A stretch of DNA of 25,816 bases from a virus: positions 1 through 25,816 of the IMG/VR virus record IMGVR_UViG_3300010883_000393; one strand, given 5' to 3'. Of this stretch, positions 11,766 through 21,106 are shown one piece after another. The translations under genes and the position numbers were made by a program. The notes under the pieces are model-generated. The model was given only the letters and a program-made list of their open reading frames with translations, did not search any database and was not told where the DNA came from. The stretch's first letter is position 1; every line of letters starts with the position of its first letter.

Positions 11766-13958
11766 GTGGCCCGTAAAGATATCGAAGCTGGCAAGTCGTT
11801 CGTTGAGTTATATCTCAAGCAGTCGAAACTCGTCAAAGGTTTGCAAGCAGCCAAGCAGCGAATGCAGTCGTTCGGCAAGAACGTCTCGATGGTCGGTGGT
11901 GCGATGGCTGGGGCAGGAACTGCAATCATAACGCCGCTTATCGCTGCTGCTGCGAAGTTCGCAGAAGTCGGAAGCGAGTTGTCGAAGATCAGCGTCCAGA
12001 CCGGAGCGAGCGTTACGGAGCTTGGGCGGTTGAAGTATGCGGCCGAACAACTCAAAGTCGATCCAGACGATCTCACAGGTGCGATCGAAGAGATGAACAT
12101 TCGATTGGGCGAGACTGTGAAAGACGGCGTCGGGCCGATGGCAGAGGCCCTAGATCATCTCGGGATCGATCCCGATCAGTTGAACGCTCAAAGCGTCGAG
12201 CAGCGACTCGGGACGATCGGCGACGCTCTCAAGGGAGTCGAAGACGATTCGCAACGAGCGTTCTTGGCCGACGAACTTCTCGGTGGCGACGCTTTCAAAA
12301 TGCTGCCGATGCTGATGGCCGGAGCGAAGGGAATGAAAGCACTCGGCGACGAAGCAGAAGGCATGGGGCTCGTCATGGACGAAGCGTCTGCATCGTCCGC
12401 AGTTACGCTCTCTGCTGCTTGGAGCAAAATGCAGAAGGTGTTTGGCGGGATCGTTACAACCATCGGCAGTGCAGTCGCTCCAGTGCTTGTCGAAGCGACT
12501 GCATTCATTACCCAGATCGCTCTCGCAGTGCGAAAGTGGGTCTCGGAGAATAAAGAACTTTTTGCCATGCTCTTGAAAGTCGGCGGGGCTCTGGTGATCG
12601 CGGGCTCAGTGATCGCAGCAGTCGGCGTCGGCATCGCTGCACTCGGCACCGCACTCGGCGGAATCGCAACGTTCATCGGTATAGTCGGGGCGGCTGTTAC
12701 GTTCTTACTTTCTCCATTCGGCTTGATCGCGACTGCTCTCGTCGTCGGTGCAGTGCTATGGGTGAAGTACACAGACAGCGGCCAACGAGCGTTCTCGTTC
12801 TTTCTCGATTCGTTTAAAGAGATGCTCTCGATCGCGAAGCAGACGTTCGGCGGGATATTCGACGCGATCGTCGGCGGCGATCTCGCACTCGCTGGCCAGA
12901 TCGCGATAACAGGTCTGAGAGTGATGGTCCTCACAGGGCTCGTCGCACTGTCCGAGATGATTGGCGGCGTCTGGGGCGGAGCAGTCGCCGGCATCGGCGG
13001 ATCGCTTATGCGGGGCGATGTCTCTGGAGCGTGGAAGAAAGGCATCGCCATGATGTCTGCTGCTTGGAAGTCGTTCGTCTCATGGGTGATCGGGGCGACT
13101 GCTGCGATGGGGCGTGGGATCACGAAGACGTGGGCTGGAGCAGTGAAAGGCACTGCGAATTGGATGCTCCAAACATCTGCCAAAGGCGGGGCGATGGGTA
13201 AAGCGATGAGTGCTATTCTCGGCGTCGATATGCAGGAGCAGCAGAAGCGATCCGACTCTCTTCACTCAGACAAAAATAAACAAGCCTACGTTCGCAACTT
13301 GGAGTCGATGATCCCAGAACTCGAAGCCAGACTCGTCAAAGCCCAAGCTGGCGGCGATACGAAAATGGTTTCTCGGCTGCTCGCTTCGATCGCTCGAACT
13401 CGCGGAGAGATCGAGAGTGCGGGTGGTAGCTTTCTTGGCGGCGACGAGTCTCAAGATGTCGTAAAAGGTGCGATGGATCTCGTCGCTGGAGACATCGATC
13501 AGAAGGCCGACTCTGCGATCGCAGCGATCGACGCTTGGCAAGAGAAAGTCGGCGGGGCCGCAGATGCAGCGAGAGACGAAGCACTCGGCGAACTCGCTGC
13601 GAACACGTCTGGCGATCTCGGTGGAGTGAAAGACGAACTTGGCAAGGCTCAGGCTGCTCTCGACAAGTTGACGGCAGACGCAGCGAAGAAAGCGAAGAAG
13701 AAGAGAGACGAGATCAAGCACGCACTGGGCGGCGACGGTGGCGATCCGATCGGCGGTGGCGGCCCAGCAGCGAAAGACGGTGGCGTCGCAGTCTCGTTCT
13801 CTGCTGCTGCTCTCGTTGCAATGGCTGGTGGCGGCGAGACACCTGCAGAGAAACTCCGCAAGGAAGTCGTCGCCCATCGCAAGTTGCAAAAGGACGCGAA
13901 CGATATGCAACTTCTCGCACTCAATAAATTAGATAATCTTGGATTCAAGTTCGCATAA
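11766..13958 (+). CDS. Tape measure protein
   Basis: 730 aa, the longest head-tail gene, directly behind the chaperones. Typical features: helical N terminus (AGKSFVELYLKQSKLVKGLQAAK), Ala/Gly-rich helices, a section with SKISVQTGASVTELGRLKYAAEQ that recurs in tape measures, and a long hydrophobic region (residues about 269-333) with several membrane-like segments, as needed for DNA passage through the inner membrane. A charged helical C-terminal third (ELEARLVKAQAGGDTKMVS onward) contains a Gly-rich patch (GGDGGDPIGGGGPAAKD). At about 1.5 angstrom per residue it implies a tail near 110 nm. Start is GTG 11766 with AGGAG 7 nt upstream; the gpT-like frame ends 3 nt earlier. Confidence 0.88.
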   Translation: MARKDIEAGKSFVELYLKQSKLVKGLQAAKQRMQSFGKNVSMVGGAMAGAGTAIITPLIAAAAKFAEVGSELSKISVQTGASVTELGRLKYAAEQLKVDPDDLTGAIEEMNIRLGETVKDGVGPMAEALDHLGIDPDQLNAQSVEQRLGTIGDALKGVEDDSQRAFLADELLGGDAFKMLPMLMAGAKGMKALGDEAEGMGLVMDEASASSAVTLSAAWSKMQKVFGGIVTTIGSAVAPVLVEATAFITQIALAVRKWVSENKELFAMLLKVGGALVIAGSVIAAVGVGIAALGTALGGIATFIGIVGAAVTFLLSPFGLIATALVVGAVLWVKYTDSGQRAFSFFLDSFKEMLSIAKQTFGGIFDAIVGGDLALAGQIAITGLRVMVLTGLVALSEMIGGVWGGAVAGIGGSLMRGDVSGAWKKGIAMMSAAWKSFVSWVIGATAAMGRGITKTWAGAVKGTANWMLQTSAKGGAMGKAMSAILGVDMQEQQKRSDSLHSDKNKQAYVRNLESMIPELEARLVKAQAGGDTKMVSRLLASIARTRGEIESAGGSFLGGDESQDVVKGAMDLVAGDIDQKADSAIAAIDAWQEKVGGAADAARDEALGELAANTSGDLGGVKDELGKAQAALDKLTADAAKKAKKKRDEIKHALGGDGGDPIGGGGPAAKDGGVAVSFSAAALVAMAGGGETPAEKLRKEVVAHRKLQKDANDMQLLALNKLDNLGFKFA

Positions 13959-13968
13959 AGGATAGGCC

Positions 13969-14769
13969 ATGTTTCGATTCAAAGAGCGGCCCGGCAGCGG
14001 TGCGGCACAGGGCGAGAAGCCGACTGTAACTCTTCTCTATACTGCGGCTGGTTCGACAGATCGTCTCTTCGTTCATGGCTACGCGATCAATGCGACGCCA
14101 GCAGTCGTATCGAGTCCGTTCGGCACTCTTCATCGCCAAGATGTGAAGATCGCCCCGACTGGCTACGATACTTGGAGCGTCGACGTTCCATTCGCGAAGA
14201 AGAAGAACGAGACTGGCGAGTATACGCTCTCTTTCGATACGACTGGCGGCACCGTTCATCTCACGACATCGAAAGAAACCATCGGGCAATATCCGATCGG
14301 GGCGGCTCCAGATTTCAAGCAGTCGATTGGAGTGAAGAAAGACGCTGTCGACGGGGCCGACATAATCATTCCATCTCTCAAGTTGACCGTGAGTTTCAAG
14401 CATAAGTTTGGAGTGATCACTCTTCCGCAGATCAAGCAGATCTCGGCGATCACGGGCACTGTGAACTCGACGACGTTTCTCACGTTCGCCCCCGGCGAGG
14501 TTCTCTTCACAGGTGCGACAGGCAGCGAAGGAACCGACTCAGACACCACTGTCCAATATAGTTACGTTATGTCCGAGAACGCTGTCGGCTTGGCGTTCGG
14601 TGATGTCGCTGGAGTCGCGAAGAAAGGCCACGAACTCGCGTGGATAAAATTCACAGACGCAGTCGACGCGGGCCCGCCCAAGCGACCGATTAAGAAGCCA
14701 CAGTTCGTTTATGTCGAGCGAGTCTACGAATCGACAGACTTCGCGACGATCTTCGGGTTCGGGGAATAA
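13969..14769 (+). CDS. Putative distal tail / tail-tip protein
   Basis: 266 aa, beta-rich, no confident family. It begins MFRFKERPGSGAAQGEKPTVTLLY and has several Thr/Val strands (TGGTVHLTTSKETIGQYPIG), a central GVITLPQIKQISAITGTVNSTTF and a charged end with KRPIKKPQFVYVERVYESTDFAT. Position right after the tape measure is where siphoviruses place the distal tail (Dit) or tail-tip hub protein. It starts 10 nt after the tape measure stop, with AAAGGATAGG upstream, and ends just before the Cys/Thr-rich protein. Virion structural role likely; exact identity open. Confidence 0.55.
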   Translation: MFRFKERPGSGAAQGEKPTVTLLYTAAGSTDRLFVHGYAINATPAVVSSPFGTLHRQDVKIAPTGYDTWSVDVPFAKKKNETGEYTLSFDTTGGTVHLTTSKETIGQYPIGAAPDFKQSIGVKKDAVDGADIIIPSLKLTVSFKHKFGVITLPQIKQISAITGTVNSTTFLTFAPGEVLFTGATGSEGTDSDTTVQYSYVMSENAVGLAFGDVAGVAKKGHELAWIKFTDAVDAGPPKRPIKKPQFVYVERVYESTDFATIFGFGE

Positions 14770-14770
14770 A

Positions 14771-16849
14771 ATGGCAGACAAGAAACAAGCAGGCGACGGC
14801 TCGTTCTCAGCGAACGACTTCAACGAGTTCGCCGACGCTGCTGCATGGTATCGCGGGAAGAAAGAACAAGGCGACACAAGTCGTCGACCGTTTGAAGATA
14901 TCCCGACCGACGTGATCAAAGCGAAGAACTCGACTTGCAAAGATCGCGAACTCGGCACCGTCGCCGATGTCTGCGATCTGATCATCGACCAAGTCGAGCC
15001 CGAAAGTCTCTGGGTGGATGCTTACGTTCCGAGCGAGACGAAGTGCTTTGGCGTTTGGCGATACGACGTGCCGAAAGATGAGATACAACAACTCCAAGTT
15101 TCGGGCGTCTGCAAGGCACTCGTTCGGATTCAAGACTTCAACCACGATCGATGCGATATCGTTCGGGGCTCGGTCTATCTTCACTCAGACGAAGACGGGC
15201 CAGTTCGGATTCTCTGGCGTCCGCAGTCGTATGGAATCCAAGAATGTATCGTTCTGATCGAAGATCCCTGTCCACAGGTTCCGGTGACAACGACGACGCC
15301 CCAGCCCGCTTACGGTTGCGTTGGCAATTGCATCTATACGTGGAACGACTCATCGCAGCATTGGAAACTTGATACTGATGGCTGCTCGACTTCGACAACG
15401 ACGACGCGAGATCCTCAGATCTTCGTTGATGAGAACGGGCCATGCATGTGTCCGGGCGTCGTCGTAACGATCGACACTGCTCCGACTCCAGCCCCATTCG
15501 ACTGCGAGTGCTTGTATCCGATATTTTGCGGAGACATCGACGGCGAGAGTGCTTCGACTAATTGCAGCAAGTGGACGAACGAGCAGCCGAGTTGCAATCC
15601 GACACCGTCGCCGACAACGACAACGACTGCGAGCCCAACGACAACTCCGGGCCCGACGACGACGACGACGCTCCACCCGGACGATCCAAGATCTTGCGAC
15701 TGCGATACAACGACAACGGCGAACTGCTCTGGCGGTTGCGACTGGGCGTATCTCCCGCATTGGGGCGGCGTTCTCGGCTGGGCCCTCCAGTCGAACGACT
15801 GCCACCCACGCTGTCCGTGTTCGCCCCCGTCGACTGCTCCTGCTCCGTGTTCAGAAGAGTCGACGCCATGTCGACCACTGCCGCCGCCGCTTCCGGGTCC
15901 GGCTCCGTACTGCTCTGGGAAATGTACCTACTGGTGGGTAACTGTCGGGATCTCTTCATATTGGATTCCGACGAATCGAGACTGCGGCGGAAACGTGCCA
16001 TGCCACTGCACTGCTCCGACAGAAGACGGCGACAATTGCGGGCCGATGGACACTCCGTGCGTATCGCCAGAGACGACGACGACTCTCGATCCATGTGCAG
16101 ACTGTTATCCAGAAACGACGACAGCGGGCCCGACGACTATCTGCCCGACTTCGTCGTTCTATCCGACGACGCAACCGCCCCAAGACGATGCTGGCTGTGA
16201 AGACTGCAAATGGCGATGGAGCGTTCTATTGTCCGAGTGGGTGAACGTCGAAGACAACTGCTCGCCATGCTTCTGCGGATACCCAGCGAAAGCCGGGACG
16301 ATTCAAGGCCAACTAGAATATGCGTCCTGTGCAGAAGTGCCGACGACTGCTGCTCCGACGACGACGACATCGAGCCCAACGACAACTCCGGGCCCGACGA
16401 CAACGACAGTTTGTCCGACGACGACGACTTGCGATCCGACAGGCCGAACAGTCTCGTGGACTTGCACTGCTCAAGGCGAGTGCCCGAGCCCGATAGCTAC
16501 GTTCTGGACGCGAGATATCTCTGGCTGCTGCCAAGATCCGAATCTCTTCTATATGCCCCAGCAGCCTTGCGACTGCGATCATATCGGCGACACTGTCTCT
16601 TGTAATTGTACGGCCGCCTGTCCAACGACGACGACGACTGCGAGCCCTACAACGACGACAACGACGACAACGACGACGAGCCCAACGACAACGACGACGA
16701 CGAGCCCAACGACAACGACGACAACGACGACGAGCCCAACGACAACGACGACAACGACGACAACGACGACGACGACAACGACGACAACGACTGCGAGCCC
16801 AACGACGACGACAACGACAACGACGACGACAACGACTGCTGGCCCGTAA
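14771..16849 (+). CDS. Cys-rich, Thr-rich mucin-like virion protein (putative tail fibre/adhesin)
   Basis: 692 aa. The ATG at 14771 has GGGGAAT 5-9 nt upstream and is preferred over an upstream frame extension to 14711. Residues 1-160 form a domain with WYRGKKEQGDTSRRPFEDIP and SLWVDAYVPSETKCFGVWRYD. The rest has about fifty cysteines in modules of the type C-x2/3-C-x-W/Y-x(n)-W-x(5-6)-C-x(2-5)-C-x-C (for example the units starting CVGNC, CSGGC, CSGKC, CEDC), joined by Thr/Pro linkers (SPTTTTT, PGPTTTT). The last ~77 residues are nearly all Thr with Ser/Pro/Ala breaks. This resembles disulfide-rich modules on mucin-like stalks. Last gene of the tail block, directly before sugar and sulfate transferase genes. 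Function inferred: receptor-binding or surface-exposed fibre. Confidence 0.7.
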   Translation: MADKKQAGDGSFSANDFNEFADAAAWYRGKKEQGDTSRRPFEDIPTDVIKAKNSTCKDRELGTVADVCDLIIDQVEPESLWVDAYVPSETKCFGVWRYDVPKDEIQQLQVSGVCKALVRIQDFNHDRCDIVRGSVYLHSDEDGPVRILWRPQSYGIQECIVLIEDPCPQVPVTTTTPQPAYGCVGNCIYTWNDSSQHWKLDTDGCSTSTTTTRDPQIFVDENGPCMCPGVVVTIDTAPTPAPFDCECLYPIFCGDIDGESASTNCSKWTNEQPSCNPTPSPTTTTTASPTTTPGPTTTTTLHPDDPRSCDCDTTTTANCSGGCDWAYLPHWGGVLGWALQSNDCHPRCPCSPPSTAPAPCSEESTPCRPLPPPLPGPAPYCSGKCTYWWVTVGISSYWIPTNRDCGGNVPCHCTAPTEDGDNCGPMDTPCVSPETTTTLDPCADCYPETTTAGPTTICPTSSFYPTTQPPQDDAGCEDCKWRWSVLLSEWVNVEDNCSPCFCGYPAKAGTIQGQLEYASCAEVPTTAAPTTTTSSPTTTPGPTTTTVCPTTTTCDPTGRTVSWTCTAQGECPSPIATFWTRDISGCCQDPNLFYMPQQPCDCDHIGDTVSCNCTAACPTTTTTASPTTTTTTTTTTSPTTTTTTSPTTTTTTTTSPTTTTTTTTTTTTTTTTTTASPTTTTTTTTTTTTAGP
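16620..16849 (+). repeat. Degenerate (ACG/ACA)n poly-Thr tract
   Basis: Almost pure ACG and ACA codons with scattered AGCCC(A/T)AC blocks coding for SPT. It encodes the C-terminal Thr runs, the longest of 18 Thr. The mixed ACG/ACA order means it is not a simple perfect microsatellite, yet the 3-bp step keeps frame, so length change would be tolerated. Smaller versions lie at 15605-15670 and 16365-16435 within the same gene. Confidence 0.8.
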
Positions 16850-16901
16850 CTTGCACTTTCGGCTGGTGGCGAGTATTCTCTCAGCAGTTTACTTCTCACG
16901 A

Positions 16902-16909
16902 AACGAAAG
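16902..16909 (+). promoter_or_regulatory. AACGAAAG element before the glycosyltransferase gene
   Basis: AACGAAAG followed by 7 nt (GGACGAG) and ATG 16917. It is the same word and spacing as in the leftward genes, here fused to AAAGGGA, a better Shine-Dalgarno. It decides the start at 16917 against the upstream frame extension to 16851. Confidence 0.5.
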
Positions 16910-16916
16910 GGACGAG

Positions 16917-18854
16917 ATGCCAAAACTCACAATCGGAATGGCGACCTTCGACGACTTCGATGGAGTCTATTTTACGATTCAGGCTCTTCGGCTATACCAT
17001 CGCGAGATGATGAAAGATGTCGAGATCGTCGTCGTCGATAACGCTCCAGAGTCGCAGTCGGGACACTCGCAACGAGTTCGCGACATTATTCAAAACTGGG
17101 TAGGGGCAGGCCAGGCCGGGGCAAAATATGTTGGCTTCAACGATCGAGTCGGAACATCTGCTTCGCGAGATCAGATCTTCAAAGTCGCAACTGGCGACGC
17201 TGTCCTCGTCGTCGACTGCCACATTCTCGTCGAGCCCGACGCGATCCGAAGACTGATCGAGTTCTATGATGCGAACCCGACGACTGATGATCTTTACACT
17301 GGGCCGCTCCGCTTCGATGATCTCGACAATATAACGACGCACTTCGACGATACTTGGCGAGCAGAGATGTGGGGCATCTGGGCGAAGGCTTGGCGATGCA
17401 AGTGCGGAGAAGATGGAGTTAAGTTCTCGACTTATCACGTCGGGGCCGATGGCGACATTGTGAACGAGCCCGGAAAGACTCCCGGCCATGTTGCGTATCG
17501 TCTTCTCTCGGCTGGGATGATCCCGCTCTCGTCCTGCTTCAACTGCGGCGACGAGTTGCCGTCGATGGATTATCCGGGCCATCAGCAGGCTCTCATCGCT
17601 GCTGGGTATTATCCGCTGGGAGTCGACAACGACGACGAGCCATTCGAGATCCCCGGCAACGGGCTCGGCTTGTTCTCTTGTCGTCGCGAGTCGTGGCTCG
17701 GCTTCAACGAAGACGCTCGCGGGTTCGGCGGCGAGGAGATGTATATCCACGAGAAGTTTCGACAAGCAGGCCAGACGACTTACTCGCTGCCGTTCTTAAA
17801 ATGGGTCCATCGATTCGGGCGAGTTAATCGACCACCTTACCCGCTTACTCGATGGAATAAGGTTCGCAACTATGTCTTGGAGCATAACGAGTTGGATCTG
17901 CCGCTCGATCGAGTGCGAGAACACTTCGTCGACTCTGGGCTCTTCAAACTCACAGAGTGGAACGACATCATCGACGACGCGAAGAACGTCGAAGAGCCCG
18001 ACTGTAATACGTGTGGGGACCGCGGCAAGCCGAAAGAAGATCTCGTCTCGAAGGCGACATCGATCGACGGCGTATATCAAGCAGTTAAACTCGACGGCTC
18101 TCGCGACTTGAACCAGCATGTGGAACGACTGCGATCGCTCGCAGAGTTGAAAGGCGTCGACCATATCACAGAGTTCTCGAAGCGACGCGAGTCGACAGTC
18201 GCTTTCCTGCGAGCAGAGCCCACTCGACTCGTTTCGCATAACGTCGATCCGAACGACGGCGGACTTCTCGCTCGACTGCCTTCGATGAAGGCCGCGACTG
18301 AGTTGCAGATCGACAAGCGATTCTCGAACGAAGACGCTCTCGACATCGAAGAGACAGATCTTCTCTTCATAAAGACGCACCACGCAGCGAGACGACTCGA
18401 ACAAGAACTTCGGCAGTATGCTCCGCGAGTTCGACGTTTCATCGTTCTTCACGGAACGCAGACGTTTGGAATCAAAGGAGAAGACGGCGGGCCCGGACTG
18501 CTCGACGCTCTTCGTCCGTTTATGATCGCCAACCCCGAGTGGTCTGTGATCGAACACGAAGAGAGGCAGCATGGCCTAACGATCTTGAGTCGACTCGATG
18601 AAGACAAGCCGCCGCTACCGGCGACGATAACGATGGCTGGCAACTTCGTCTCTCACATGGCGTCCTATGTCGTCGACGGCTTGAAGGGCTCGACAGCAGA
18701 AGAACTCGAAGAGCGTCTCGCGATCTGCTCGATCTGTCCATCTCGTCGGAACGATCGCTGCTCGGTCTGTGGCTGTCCGATTATGAAGAAGGCGACGAAG
18801 AAAGCCATGCACTGTGATCTCGGCAAGTGGCCGAAACTAGAGGTGATCGAATGA
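16917..18854 (+). CDS. GT2 glycosyltransferase fused to CmcI-like domain and Cys-rich tail
   Basis: 645 aa, three parts. (1) GT2/GT-A domain, residues 1-330: PKLTIGMATFDDFDGVYFTI, IVVVDNAP, DxD-like VVDCH (100-102), a GFGGEEMYIHEKFRQAG acceptor-side motif (269-285) and LKWVHRFGRVNRPPY. (2) Residues ~380-560: a Rossmann-like domain resembling CmcI/class I methyltransferase-type domains (DLLFIKTHHAARRLEQEL, FIVLHGTQTFG, GLTILSR); as I recall the family, the usual Asp in FID and HDT is Lys486 and Gly513 here, so it may be non-catalytic. (3) Residues ~590-645: Cys-rich tail (C604, C607, C615, C618, C620, C633), likely zinc-binding. The stop overlaps the sulfotransferase start (ATGA). Role: sugar transfer, target unknown. 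Confidence 0.82.
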   Translation: MPKLTIGMATFDDFDGVYFTIQALRLYHREMMKDVEIVVVDNAPESQSGHSQRVRDIIQNWVGAGQAGAKYVGFNDRVGTSASRDQIFKVATGDAVLVVDCHILVEPDAIRRLIEFYDANPTTDDLYTGPLRFDDLDNITTHFDDTWRAEMWGIWAKAWRCKCGEDGVKFSTYHVGADGDIVNEPGKTPGHVAYRLLSAGMIPLSSCFNCGDELPSMDYPGHQQALIAAGYYPLGVDNDDEPFEIPGNGLGLFSCRRESWLGFNEDARGFGGEEMYIHEKFRQAGQTTYSLPFLKWVHRFGRVNRPPYPLTRWNKVRNYVLEHNELDLPLDRVREHFVDSGLFKLTEWNDIIDDAKNVEEPDCNTCGDRGKPKEDLVSKATSIDGVYQAVKLDGSRDLNQHVERLRSLAELKGVDHITEFSKRRESTVAFLRAEPTRLVSHNVDPNDGGLLARLPSMKAATELQIDKRFSNEDALDIEETDLLFIKTHHAARRLEQELRQYAPRVRRFIVLHGTQTFGIKGEDGGPGLLDALRPFMIANPEWSVIEHEERQHGLTILSRLDEDKPPLPATITMAGNFVSHMASYVVDGLKGSTAEELEERLAICSICPSRRNDRCSVCGCPIMKKATKKAMHCDLGKWPKLEVIE

Positions 18855-19435
18855 GTCGTCGTGGCTTCGTATCACTCAAGGCTGGCGTCGAATATCTTGA
18901 GATACCGAAGGTGGCCTGCACTTCGATCAAGTTCGCACTCTTGAGAACAGATGGGCTCGAAGCGATCGACGGGAACCACGCCCACTCGCATCGACATTGG
19001 GAGTCGATACCCGATGAGTTCAAGCCGACGCTCGTCTTCTCGTTCGTTCGGCATCCGTTCGATCGACTGATCTCTTCATACGTCGAGAAGTTGAAGACAG
19101 GCAGTGCGAAGCAGTTGTGTGGATGCCCGCTGCCGTTCGACGCTTCATTCGAAGAGTGGGTTCGGTGGGTGGTATCGAACAGACCCGATCGACACTGGGC
19201 TCCGCAGTCTTCGATAATGGATCGCAGACGAGCCAAGCCCGACGTTGTATATCGATTCGAGAAACTCGCCCCGACCTGGGAGATCTTGCAGTCGCACTTT
19301 GGGCTTGCTGATCTGCCCCACGAAAACAAGTCGCGAGAGCCCGACGACGATACCCACTTCTGGCACGACGCCGAGACAGTGCGACTCGCCAGAGAGTTCT
19401 ATCGCGAAGACTTTGAAAGGTTCGGCTACGAATGA
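18851..19435 (+). CDS. PAPS-dependent sulfotransferase
   Basis: 194 aa. The N terminus contains IPKVACTSIKFAL (residues 18-30), the 5'-phosphosulfate loop (Lys20, Thr/Ser24-25), and FSFVRHPFDRLISSY (63-77), the 3'-phosphate site with Arg67 and Ser75, the two signatures of the Sulfotransfer_2 (carbohydrate sulfotransferase) family. Conserved AHSHRHW and the later WAPQSSIMD fit as well. It would move sulfate from PAPS to a sugar hydroxyl. It is short but complete, ending in RFGYE. It overlaps both neighbours by ATGA, so it is made together with the glycosyltransferase and methyltransferase; its substrate is probably the glycan they build. No membrane segment, so cytoplasmic. Confidence 0.85.
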   Translation: MSRRGFVSLKAGVEYLEIPKVACTSIKFALLRTDGLEAIDGNHAHSHRHWESIPDEFKPTLVFSFVRHPFDRLISSYVEKLKTGSAKQLCGCPLPFDASFEEWVRWVVSNRPDRHWAPQSSIMDRRRAKPDVVYRFEKLAPTWEILQSHFGLADLPHENKSREPDDDTHFWHDAETVRLAREFYREDFERFGYE

Positions 19436-20001
19436 ACGACGACGACATCGCCAAACTGCCGATGGGACATCTCTTCTCGGCAGAAGTTCGAGAACTCGCT
19501 CGCATCTCTCGGGCTCGTCGCTGCCTCGAAGTTGGCTGCTTTCGCGGTCGATCTGCTGCGACGATGCTGCCGAACGCTGCGACCGTGACATCTGTCGACA
19601 ACTTCGTCGGTGATACGTTTATCGGCGATACAAGCGGCTGGCAAGCGAGGGCCGAGAATGTAAAGCGAGTTCTCAGGAACTTAGAAAAGCGTGGATTCTC
19701 TTTCGATCGGCATTCTCTATTTGTTGCAGACTCGACGATCGTTCTTGATCAACTCGACCCGAGTGCTTTCGACTTTTACTTCTACGACGGCGATCACTCA
19801 GGCGAAGCGACTGCCAACGGGCTTGAGTTCGCGAAGCGGATGCCAGTCGACTCGATTATCGCAGTCCACGACTACAAACCAGCCAACCCAAAATATATCG
19901 GAGCGATCGCAGCGATCGACGACTTCGCATCTTGCATCGGAGTCGAGCCCACGATCGTTGGATCGCTCGCAGTCTTTCGAGGACATCTCGCCCATGAGTG
20001 A
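19432..20001 (+). CDS. Class I SAM-dependent methyltransferase (Methyltransf_24-like)
   Basis: 189 aa. Motif I is LEVGCFRGRSA (residues 32-42), the Gly-rich SAM loop; a second acidic strand is TSVDNF (53-58), and FYFYDGDHSGEATANGL is the DGDH stretch typical of the Methyltransf_24/CmcI-like group, followed by IIAVHDY, the metal/substrate-side HD pair. Length is normal for a single-domain enzyme. It overlaps the sulfotransferase stop (ATGA) and the following GT2 start (8 nt). In this setting it likely O-methylates a sugar, but amino-acid or other small-molecule substrates are not excluded. Confidence 0.82.
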   Translation: MNDDDIAKLPMGHLFSAEVRELARISRARRCLEVGCFRGRSAATMLPNAATVTSVDNFVGDTFIGDTSGWQARAENVKRVLRNLEKRGFSFDRHSLFVADSTIVLDQLDPSAFDFYFYDGDHSGEATANGLEFAKRMPVDSIIAVHDYKPANPKYIGAIAAIDDFASCIGVEPTIVGSLAVFRGHLAHE

Positions 20002-20734
20002 TCTCATCTCCTGCCTATGCCCTACGTTCAACCGCCCACCGCACTCGACTCGACTTCTCGAAGAGTCGATCGCTTCGTTCATCTCCCAAGATGATCCGAA
20101 CAAGGAGTTGATCATCGGGAACGACTGTCCAGAGCAGCGACTCATCTGCGACGCTCCGAACGTTCGAGTGGTGAACTTCGACAAGCGATTCGAGACGCTG
20201 TCCGATAAACTGATCGCCATGATCGAGATCGCGGATGGCGACTTGATATGTCGCTGGGACGACGACGACATCTGTCTTCCGCATCGACTGTCGTATTCGC
20301 GAAAGAAACTCGGCGACGATCTTGAGTGGCGGCCAGGAAACTATATCTGGTGGCTCGAAGGCAAGCGAGAACTCCATCGAATCGAGCATCCGGGCAACAC
20401 CCATTGCATGGCTCTCTGGCGTCGATCAGTTCTCGAACTCATCGACGGTTATCCAGCGAAGCGAAGCGGCGACGAAGATCAGCAGTTCAACCAGAAGCTG
20501 GAGCGAGCGGGCATCTCTTCGCATCTCGGCGAGATCATTCCGAACGATGCTGTCTTCTATGTCTATCGGTGGGGCGTCTCGTCGACTCATCTGTCCGGGC
20601 GTCGCGAACTCCAAGAGCATTGGGACGCTATCGGCGATCGCTCGATCGAGTCTGGCTCGTTCGATATCACCCCGAAGCGATGGCCCATACTCGACCGCTT
20701 GAACGAGTTGATCGGCGAGACAGTTACCATCTAA
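19994..20734 (+). CDS. GT2 family glycosyltransferase
   Basis: 246 aa. Starts MSDLISCLCPTFNRPPHSTRLLEESI, the first beta strand and helix of a GT-A fold (CxPTFNR is a strong GT2 marker). The metal-binding acid cluster is WDDDDICLPHRL (residues 88-99), and an acceptor-side region reads SGDEDQQFNQKLERAG. No membrane segment. The ATG at 19994 is inside the methyltransferase gene end (8-nt overlap); the longer open frame upstream to 19691 is rejected because it would run antiparallel in content with that gene. Last gene of the cassette; a terminator follows at 20784-20813. It would add a sugar from a nucleotide-sugar donor. Confidence 0.85.
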   Translation: MSDLISCLCPTFNRPPHSTRLLEESIASFISQDDPNKELIIGNDCPEQRLICDAPNVRVVNFDKRFETLSDKLIAMIEIADGDLICRWDDDDICLPHRLSYSRKKLGDDLEWRPGNYIWWLEGKRELHRIEHPGNTHCMALWRRSVLELIDGYPAKRSGDEDQQFNQKLERAGISSHLGEIIPNDAVFYVYRWGVSSTHLSGRRELQEHWDAIGDRSIESGSFDITPKRWPILDRLNELIGETVTI

Positions 20735-20783
20735 AAGCCGAGACTTTCGTCGTCGCGAGTGTTGGCCTCTATTCTCCAACGAT

Positions 20784-20813
20784 CGATCGCCCCGCTCGCG
20801 GCGTCGTTTTTTT
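20784..20813 (+). terminator. Rho-independent terminator after the glycosyltransferase cassette
   Basis: CGA(T)CGCC pairs with GGCGTCG (7 bp, one bulged T) around an 8-nt loop and is followed directly by seven T (20807-20813). It lies 50 nt after the GT2 stop and closes the late rightward genes. Confidence 0.65.
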
Positions 20814-20920: not shown

Positions 20921-21106
20921 ATGGCGAGATTAGTCTTATCACGAAGAGATGGCGAGTCGATCACGTTCCCAGAACTCGGCATCGTCATAAAAACGGAGCA
21001 TAAAAACGGCTCTGGAGTTCGACTCGTTGTCGAAGCAGACAAGTCGATCAGAGTCGTTCGAACCGAACTGCTCGAACGCGATCGCGAAGTCGAACAACTC
21101 AACTAG
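20921..21106 (+). CDS. csrA: CsrA/RsmA-like RNA-binding translational regulator
   Basis: 61 aa, the usual CsrA length. MARLVLSRRDGESITF matches the first strand and loop (L-x-L-x-R-R-x-G-E-S/T). VRLVVEADKSIRVVRTELLERD matches the fourth/fifth strands, with Arg47 aligned to the RNA-contacting Arg44 of E. coli CsrA and Arg8 to Arg6. CsrA dimers bind GGA motifs in mRNA leaders and block or promote translation. The gene has a strong Shine-Dalgarno (GGAGGA) and a hairpin with GGA in its loop in the leader. It stands alone between two terminators, so it is a single-gene transcript. Phage-borne CsrA could redirect host metabolism or time phage gene expression. A weak point is the divergent middle (FPELGIVIKTEHKNGS), longer than usual. 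Confidence 0.82.
   Translation: MARLVLSRRDGESITFPELGIVIKTEHKNGSGVRLVVEADKSIRVVRTELLERDREVEQLN

Follow-up and report, generated by a model that had tools for sequence, protein, structure and literature searches.

The 25.8-kb viral contig analysed here in full (the window; 25,816 nucleotides, IMG/VR record IMGVR_UViG_3300010883_000393) contains genes for a portal protein, an S49 protease, a major head protein, a tape-measure protein, CsrA, YqaJ and RecT. On its plus strand, as are the other features described between 11766 and 20812, lies a gene for a threonine- and cysteine-rich (Thr/Cys) protein followed by four enzyme genes, which together are likely to form a cassette for self-glycosylation of a mucin-like tail protein by the phage. 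The tail tape-measure gene (11766–13958; PHROGs tape-measure families, best E-value 4.8e-36) places this block in the late tail region. Following it are one unnamed gene, the Thr/Cys gene, a gap of 67 nucleotides (nt) and the four enzyme genes, the last of which ends at 20734. Successive enzyme genes overlap by 4 nt (ATGA at 18851), 4 nt (ATGA at 19432) and 8 nt (19994–20001). The reading frames, starts, stops and overlaps of the five genes were verified, and the gap and junctions described in the first-pass annotation of this DNA stand.

The Thr/Cys protein

The proposed acceptor (14771–16849, 692 residues) is, as first annotated, a Cys-rich protein with long poly-Thr tracts. It contains 144 Thr (21%) and 53 Cys (8%), and its longest Thr run is 18 residues, compared with at most 9 in 2,000 shuffles of the same composition. 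Across the 12 other genes of the window Thr makes up 5.3% of residues, and long Thr runs occur in the Thr/Cys protein alone. Segmentation places its Cys-rich modules (consensus ~CxGxCxYxW...W...C...CxC..P...C), with Thr linkers between them, at 15311–16618. Below the modules is a C-terminal poly-Thr stalk (16625–16837) with runs of 5, 10, 6, 8, 18 and 12 residues interrupted by SP, ASP and similar short breaks; 61 of the last 100 residues of the protein are Thr. With Thr runs lying between several Cys-rich modules, the layout is mucin-like rather than merely Thr-rich, with the alternation of Thr/Ser/Pro tracts and Cys-rich domains expected of a mucin.

The Thr/Cys proteins of relatives range from 196 to nearly 2,000 residues and are built from the same kind of module, often with FCG..GECTYT and CDC-TTTT blocks; the modules of six relatives align with 16 invariant Cys columns (alignment A2). 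Neither Pfam nor PHROGs returned a match for the Thr/Cys proteins, whether separate or fused to tail proteins. The position after the tape-measure gene suggests that the window protein may be a tail fibre. Fused C-terminally to long tail-region proteins with no family match are Thr/Cys modules in two relatives (L017:4497–8711 and L008:3959–9916); as the L017 fusion lies 3′ of a tape-measure-like gene, such modules would sit on the tail.

The cassette enzymes

The first enzyme gene (16917–18854, 645 residues) encodes a fusion, resolved with Pfam, PHROGs, AlphaFold2 (AF2) and Foldseek, of a DxH glycosyltransferase (GT) domain (residues ~1–345), a Methyltransf_24-like domain (376–568; 18042–18620) and a DUF6171-like Cys module (597–638). 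Its matches are to Pfam GT2 (4.3e-11), DUF6171 (0.004) and phrog_13558 (2.8e-10). The families first assigned to the four enzymes (GT2, Sulfotransfer_2, Methyltransf_24 and GT2) all score above the Pfam cut-off, although the first 'GT2' proves to be this three-part fusion.

GT27 and GT60 enzymes both transfer N-acetylhexosamine (HexNAc) to polypeptides. Three motifs of the window GT domain are conserved across 17 GT domains: the DxH motif Asp100-Cys-His102 (17214–17222), whose invariant D and H are predicted metal ligands; the invariant GGEE motif (residues 271–274, 17727–17738); and the invariant W296-x-H298 (17802–17810), a candidate third metal ligand ('C-His') assigned by sequence order, which comes after GGEE as in GT27. 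DxH stands in place of DxD in GT27 and GT60 (PMC7185993). Likeness to GT27 was predicted before the fold search was made. Against the PDB, Foldseek ranks 1–42 for the AF2 model (mean predicted local distance difference test (pLDDT) score of 78) were all polypeptide N-acetylgalactosaminyltransferases (ppGalNAc-Ts; best E-value 3e-10), and TgGalNAc-T3 is among the matches. The TM-score was 0.59 to the catalytic-domain-sized chain 4d11_F and otherwise ~0.33–0.42 on longer targets.

The ppGalNAc-T-like fold and the DxH motif together indicate a peptide acceptor. The sequence of the domain has no significant similarity to GT27 and is assigned by Pfam to general GT2, and a profile of the whole fusion searched against the PDB matched general GT2 alone. 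As sequence alone lends membership no support, we propose from the model that the enzyme may work like a GT27 ppGalNAc-T rather than that it is one. Phage system and GT27 enzymes share DxH and, by the model, the GT-A fold; a putative conserved C-terminal His and the proposed Thr-rich acceptor with Cys-rich domains would add to the likeness, whereas the phage enzyme has no Golgi context, has GGEE for GGEN and, where GT27 has a ricin-type lectin domain, carries the Methyltransf_24-like domain and Cys module in its C-terminal half. The DxH enzymes described as acting on Thr-rich repeats (PMC11074326) likewise belong to the eukaryotic Golgi and carry a lectin domain; they share DxH with the phage enzyme, which lacks that domain.

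The middle domain was recognized from a motif table and from its likeness to that of relative L010, which matches Methyltransf_24 at 5.5e-7. The glycines of S-adenosylmethionine (SAM) motif I are replaced in the window (EFSKRREST) and retained in L010 (EFGVRYGVST), so the window domain, judged from these residues, may have lost SAM binding. At the C terminus some relatives carry the DUF6171-like Cys module (18705–18830 in the window) and others a different Cys module; the DUF6171-like module is also a stand-alone gene directly after a poly-Thr gene (L172:1614–1886). Cellular DxH glycosyltransferases, from Rhizobiales and others, can bear an N-terminal fusion (L086:8996–10828 and L103:8894–10846), and the N-terminal part of the latter weakly matches the HPr-kinase C-terminal domain.

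The second cassette gene (18851–19435) encodes a carbohydrate-type sulfotransferase (Pfam Sulfotransfer_2 3.2e-24; phrog_3347, galactose-3-O-sulfotransferase, 1e-15). Like known carbohydrate sulfotransferases it matches PF03567 over the full domain (86.9 bits against a gathering cut-off of 22), but it is a short phage form. The third (19432–20001) encodes a SAM methyltransferase (Pfam Methyltransf_24 1.2e-10), and the fourth (19994–20734) a second GT2 glycosyltransferase of the DxD type (WDDDD; Pfam GT2 2.9e-11), which is conserved downstream in most relatives whose contigs extend far enough. Relatives with methyltransferases include L013, L014, L020, L160, L162 and L164. Because the sulfotransferase was seen only in the window, L002, L160 and L166, sulfation would be an optional finishing step, plausible as a late one. 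In L166 (13016–14158) a sulfotransferase and Methyltransf_24 form one protein, a natural fusion of the two overlapping genes of the window.

Association of glycosyltransferases with Thr-rich genes

The fused enzyme has relatives in viral contigs and in one Pirellulales metagenome-assembled genome (MAG); a tblastn search of GenBank phages gave none. The pairing with a Thr/Cys gene is retained where the enzymes share 35–50% identity. Counting each viral contig once, and taking fused-size enzymes (at least 540 residues) with at least 2.5 kb of upstream sequence (n = 19), a Thr/Cys gene (thresholds of 13% Thr and 3% Cys, within 2.5 kb of the enzyme) was present in 14 of 19. Inspection of the other five (L008, L009, L010, L057 and L058) showed one nearby in each, just under the threshold or masked by the choice of reading frame, so that none of them remains an exception. 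Over this region viral contig L009 appears identical to genome G023. Genes intervene between the pair in the L043 group, L058 and L160; in L160 the order is Thr/Cys gene, sulfotransferase, then fused enzyme. A search in the opposite direction, using only the Thr/Cys core, yielded five new contigs; four of them extend beyond the gene, and in all four the fused enzyme lies close downstream. The co-inheritance suggested as a check on the first annotation is thus seen in both directions (19/19, five by inspection, and 4/4), and viral loci of the fused enzyme do not show the cassette as commonly without a Thr-rich protein as with one. Across the viral relatives of the GT as a whole, both fused and plain, the gene immediately upstream contains a Thr run of at least four at 27 of 70 loci, versus 34 of 557 other genes. 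Unrelated Thr proteins are paired with DxH-type enzymes in L029, L043, L213 and L216.

A blind scan of viral contigs for a DNA pattern of 12 Thr codons gave 120 loci, 99 with an open reading frame in the Thr frame. Glycosyltransferases made up 13 of 54 same-strand downstream neighbours; upstream the count was 0 of 68, and among other genes 4 of 559 (Fisher p of 1e-5 and 8e-12, respectively). Three of the 13 are GT2 enzymes of the window's type and ten belong to an unnamed QPAxxYYxWQxEV family, which folds as GT-A (pLDDT 82) with best matches to UGGT, alpha-1,3-galactosyltransferase and the PBCV-1 capsid glycosyltransferase (E-values from 5e-7). That two unrelated enzyme families have the same kind of neighbour indicates a function. 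Two more downstream neighbours are GT-like by Pfam, one GT4-like in L210 (below cut-off) and one GT2 in L247. Poly-Thr alone was rejected as a marker, as most poly-Thr phage genes in the scan have no adjacent glycosyltransferase.

Members of the second family (in longer form, QPAxxYYxWQxEVxINNF) have an invariant DxD and SGGAQ or IGAQ, and those tested have no Pfam match above cut-off. Their genes lie directly after poly-Thr phage genes at L204:1108–2028, L245:7182–8087, L187:3898–4815 and others, and in L167 the protein continues into a methyltransferase-like part.

Flanking the cassette upstream is the unnamed tail-region gene (13969–14769), directly 5′ of the Thr/Cys gene and without a Pfam or PHROGs match; in relatives L002, L003 and L004 the slot is filled by genes of ~300–320 codons. 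The terminator thought to close the block survives in part: a weak, long-looped hairpin followed by seven T lies at ~20750–20812 (folding z = −1.8), but a consensus terminator scan found none 3′ of 20734. Directly 3′ of the cassette is a phage-encoded CsrA (20921–21106; Pfam 2.7e-10). The host is probably planctomycete-like; the portal protein, a weak host test, matched in only 5 of 398 genomes from the class to which the Pirellulales MAG belongs, at 28–32% identity.

Alternative explanations and biological meaning

The enzymes could instead modify host surface glycans, for example to convert the serotype or to keep out other phages, the Thr/Cys protein being a mere neighbour in the late operon. 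Surface polysaccharide synthesis commonly draws on GT2, sulfotransferase and methyltransferase families, and the cassette glycosyltransferases weakly match capsule-type models. Phage serotype-conversion (Gtr) cassettes, however, have a GtrA flippase and a GtrB bactoprenol transferase, and none of the GtrA-type flippase, GtrB or lipid-carrier enzyme models scored above cut-off among the four cassette enzymes. The peptide acceptor indicated by fold and DxH, the tracking of enzymes and Thr/Cys genes in both search directions, and the unrelated glycosyltransferases that follow unrelated poly-Thr genes also make host-surface modification unlikely. Simple linkage, with the tail module passed on as one unit, no enzyme–substrate relation and poly-Thr arising by repeat slippage, would fit the order of tape-measure, tail protein, Thr/Cys and enzyme genes common to many relatives, and the Thr codons of the window gene, mostly ACG and ACA in ACN repeats. 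The AT-rich relative L002 nevertheless keeps its Thr runs with other codons (ACT/ACA-rich tracts), which disfavours slippage alone. As unrelated Thr proteins pair both with DxH-type enzymes and with the second GT family, and upstream neighbours in the blind scan show no glycosyltransferase enrichment, we regard linkage as improbable.

A precedent for a different acceptor is found in mycobacteriophages, whose virion proteins are reported to be glycosylated at capsid and tail-tube C-termini and for which phage-encoded glycosyltransferases have been proposed (Freeman et al. 2023, cited in PMC12619734 and PMC10955285). If the enzymes here likewise acted on capsid or tail tube, where PMC12619734 places the glycans on subunit C-termini, the Thr/Cys protein would be a separate adhesin. 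This seems very improbable, as gene position and co-inheritance favour the Thr/Cys protein, the only one in the window with long Thr runs. What is proposed for the window differs from the mycobacteriophage case in having a dedicated mucin-like protein as acceptor, accompanied by sulfotransferase and methyltransferase genes.

Several points weigh against self-glycosylation of the Thr/Cys protein. The link to a Thr-rich gene is looser for fused and plain enzymes together than for fused ones, many near-identical phages with plain enzymes having no Thr-rich neighbour. A relative of the enzyme is present in 24 of the 398 genomes; of 18 regions inspected, at least eight include a neighbouring Thr/Cys gene and at least six lack one, and Planctomycetia loci such as L313, L314, L320, L326, L327 and L328 have a DxH-type enzyme with no Thr-rich neighbour. 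Such plain phage copies and Planctomycetia loci would also suit modification of the host surface. In the sequence-profile search of the GT domain against the PDB, GalNAc-T7 comes up no better than E = 0.56, behind bacterial GT2s, and the Foldseek ranking was obtained for the window enzyme by itself. The p values of the blind scan are optimistic, since related phages were counted, and a place for the Thr/Cys protein in the virion is suggested by gene position.

In the self-glycosylation mechanism that we infer, with regard to the identities of acceptor and sugar, the order of steps, the place in the virion and the benefit, the product of 14771–16849 would be a tail-region protein of Cys-rich folded modules and poly-Thr linkers, with a poly-Thr stalk at its end. 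Acting in the cytoplasm of the host like a polypeptide HexNAc-transferase, the enzyme encoded at 16917–18854 would prime the Thr residues of that protein, the second GT2 would extend the glycan, and the methyltransferase and sulfotransferase would cap it before tail assembly, leaving the virion tail with a methylated, sulfated sugar coat. Candidate benefits are adsorption and shielding from host surface polymers or proteases. Of the idea that the phage both glycosylates and sulfates its Thr-rich protein, the glycosylation part is thus supported by co-inheritance, the ppGalNAc-T-like fold and DxH, while sulfation becomes optional.

Owing to the GalNAc-T-like predicted shape of the enzyme and the side-by-side placement of the genes in relatives, it is probable that phages of this group coat their own particles with sugar. 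A few cultured phages are known to have glycosylated virions, and a limited search of the open-access literature brought up no account of a poly-Thr phage protein with a partner glycosyltransferase. The evidence leaves evenly balanced the broader proposition that tailed phages evolved their own cytoplasmic mucin-type O-glycosylation, consisting of a DxH enzyme and a poly-Thr, Cys-modular tail protein, with the same arrangement arising independently around a second GT-A family and widespread in environmental phages. If true, a poly-Thr gene followed by a glycosyltransferase gene would be a sequence signature predicting sugar-coated virions in many uncultured phages, and the cassette would offer a system, from a bacterial virus, for cytoplasmic glycosylation of the mucin type.

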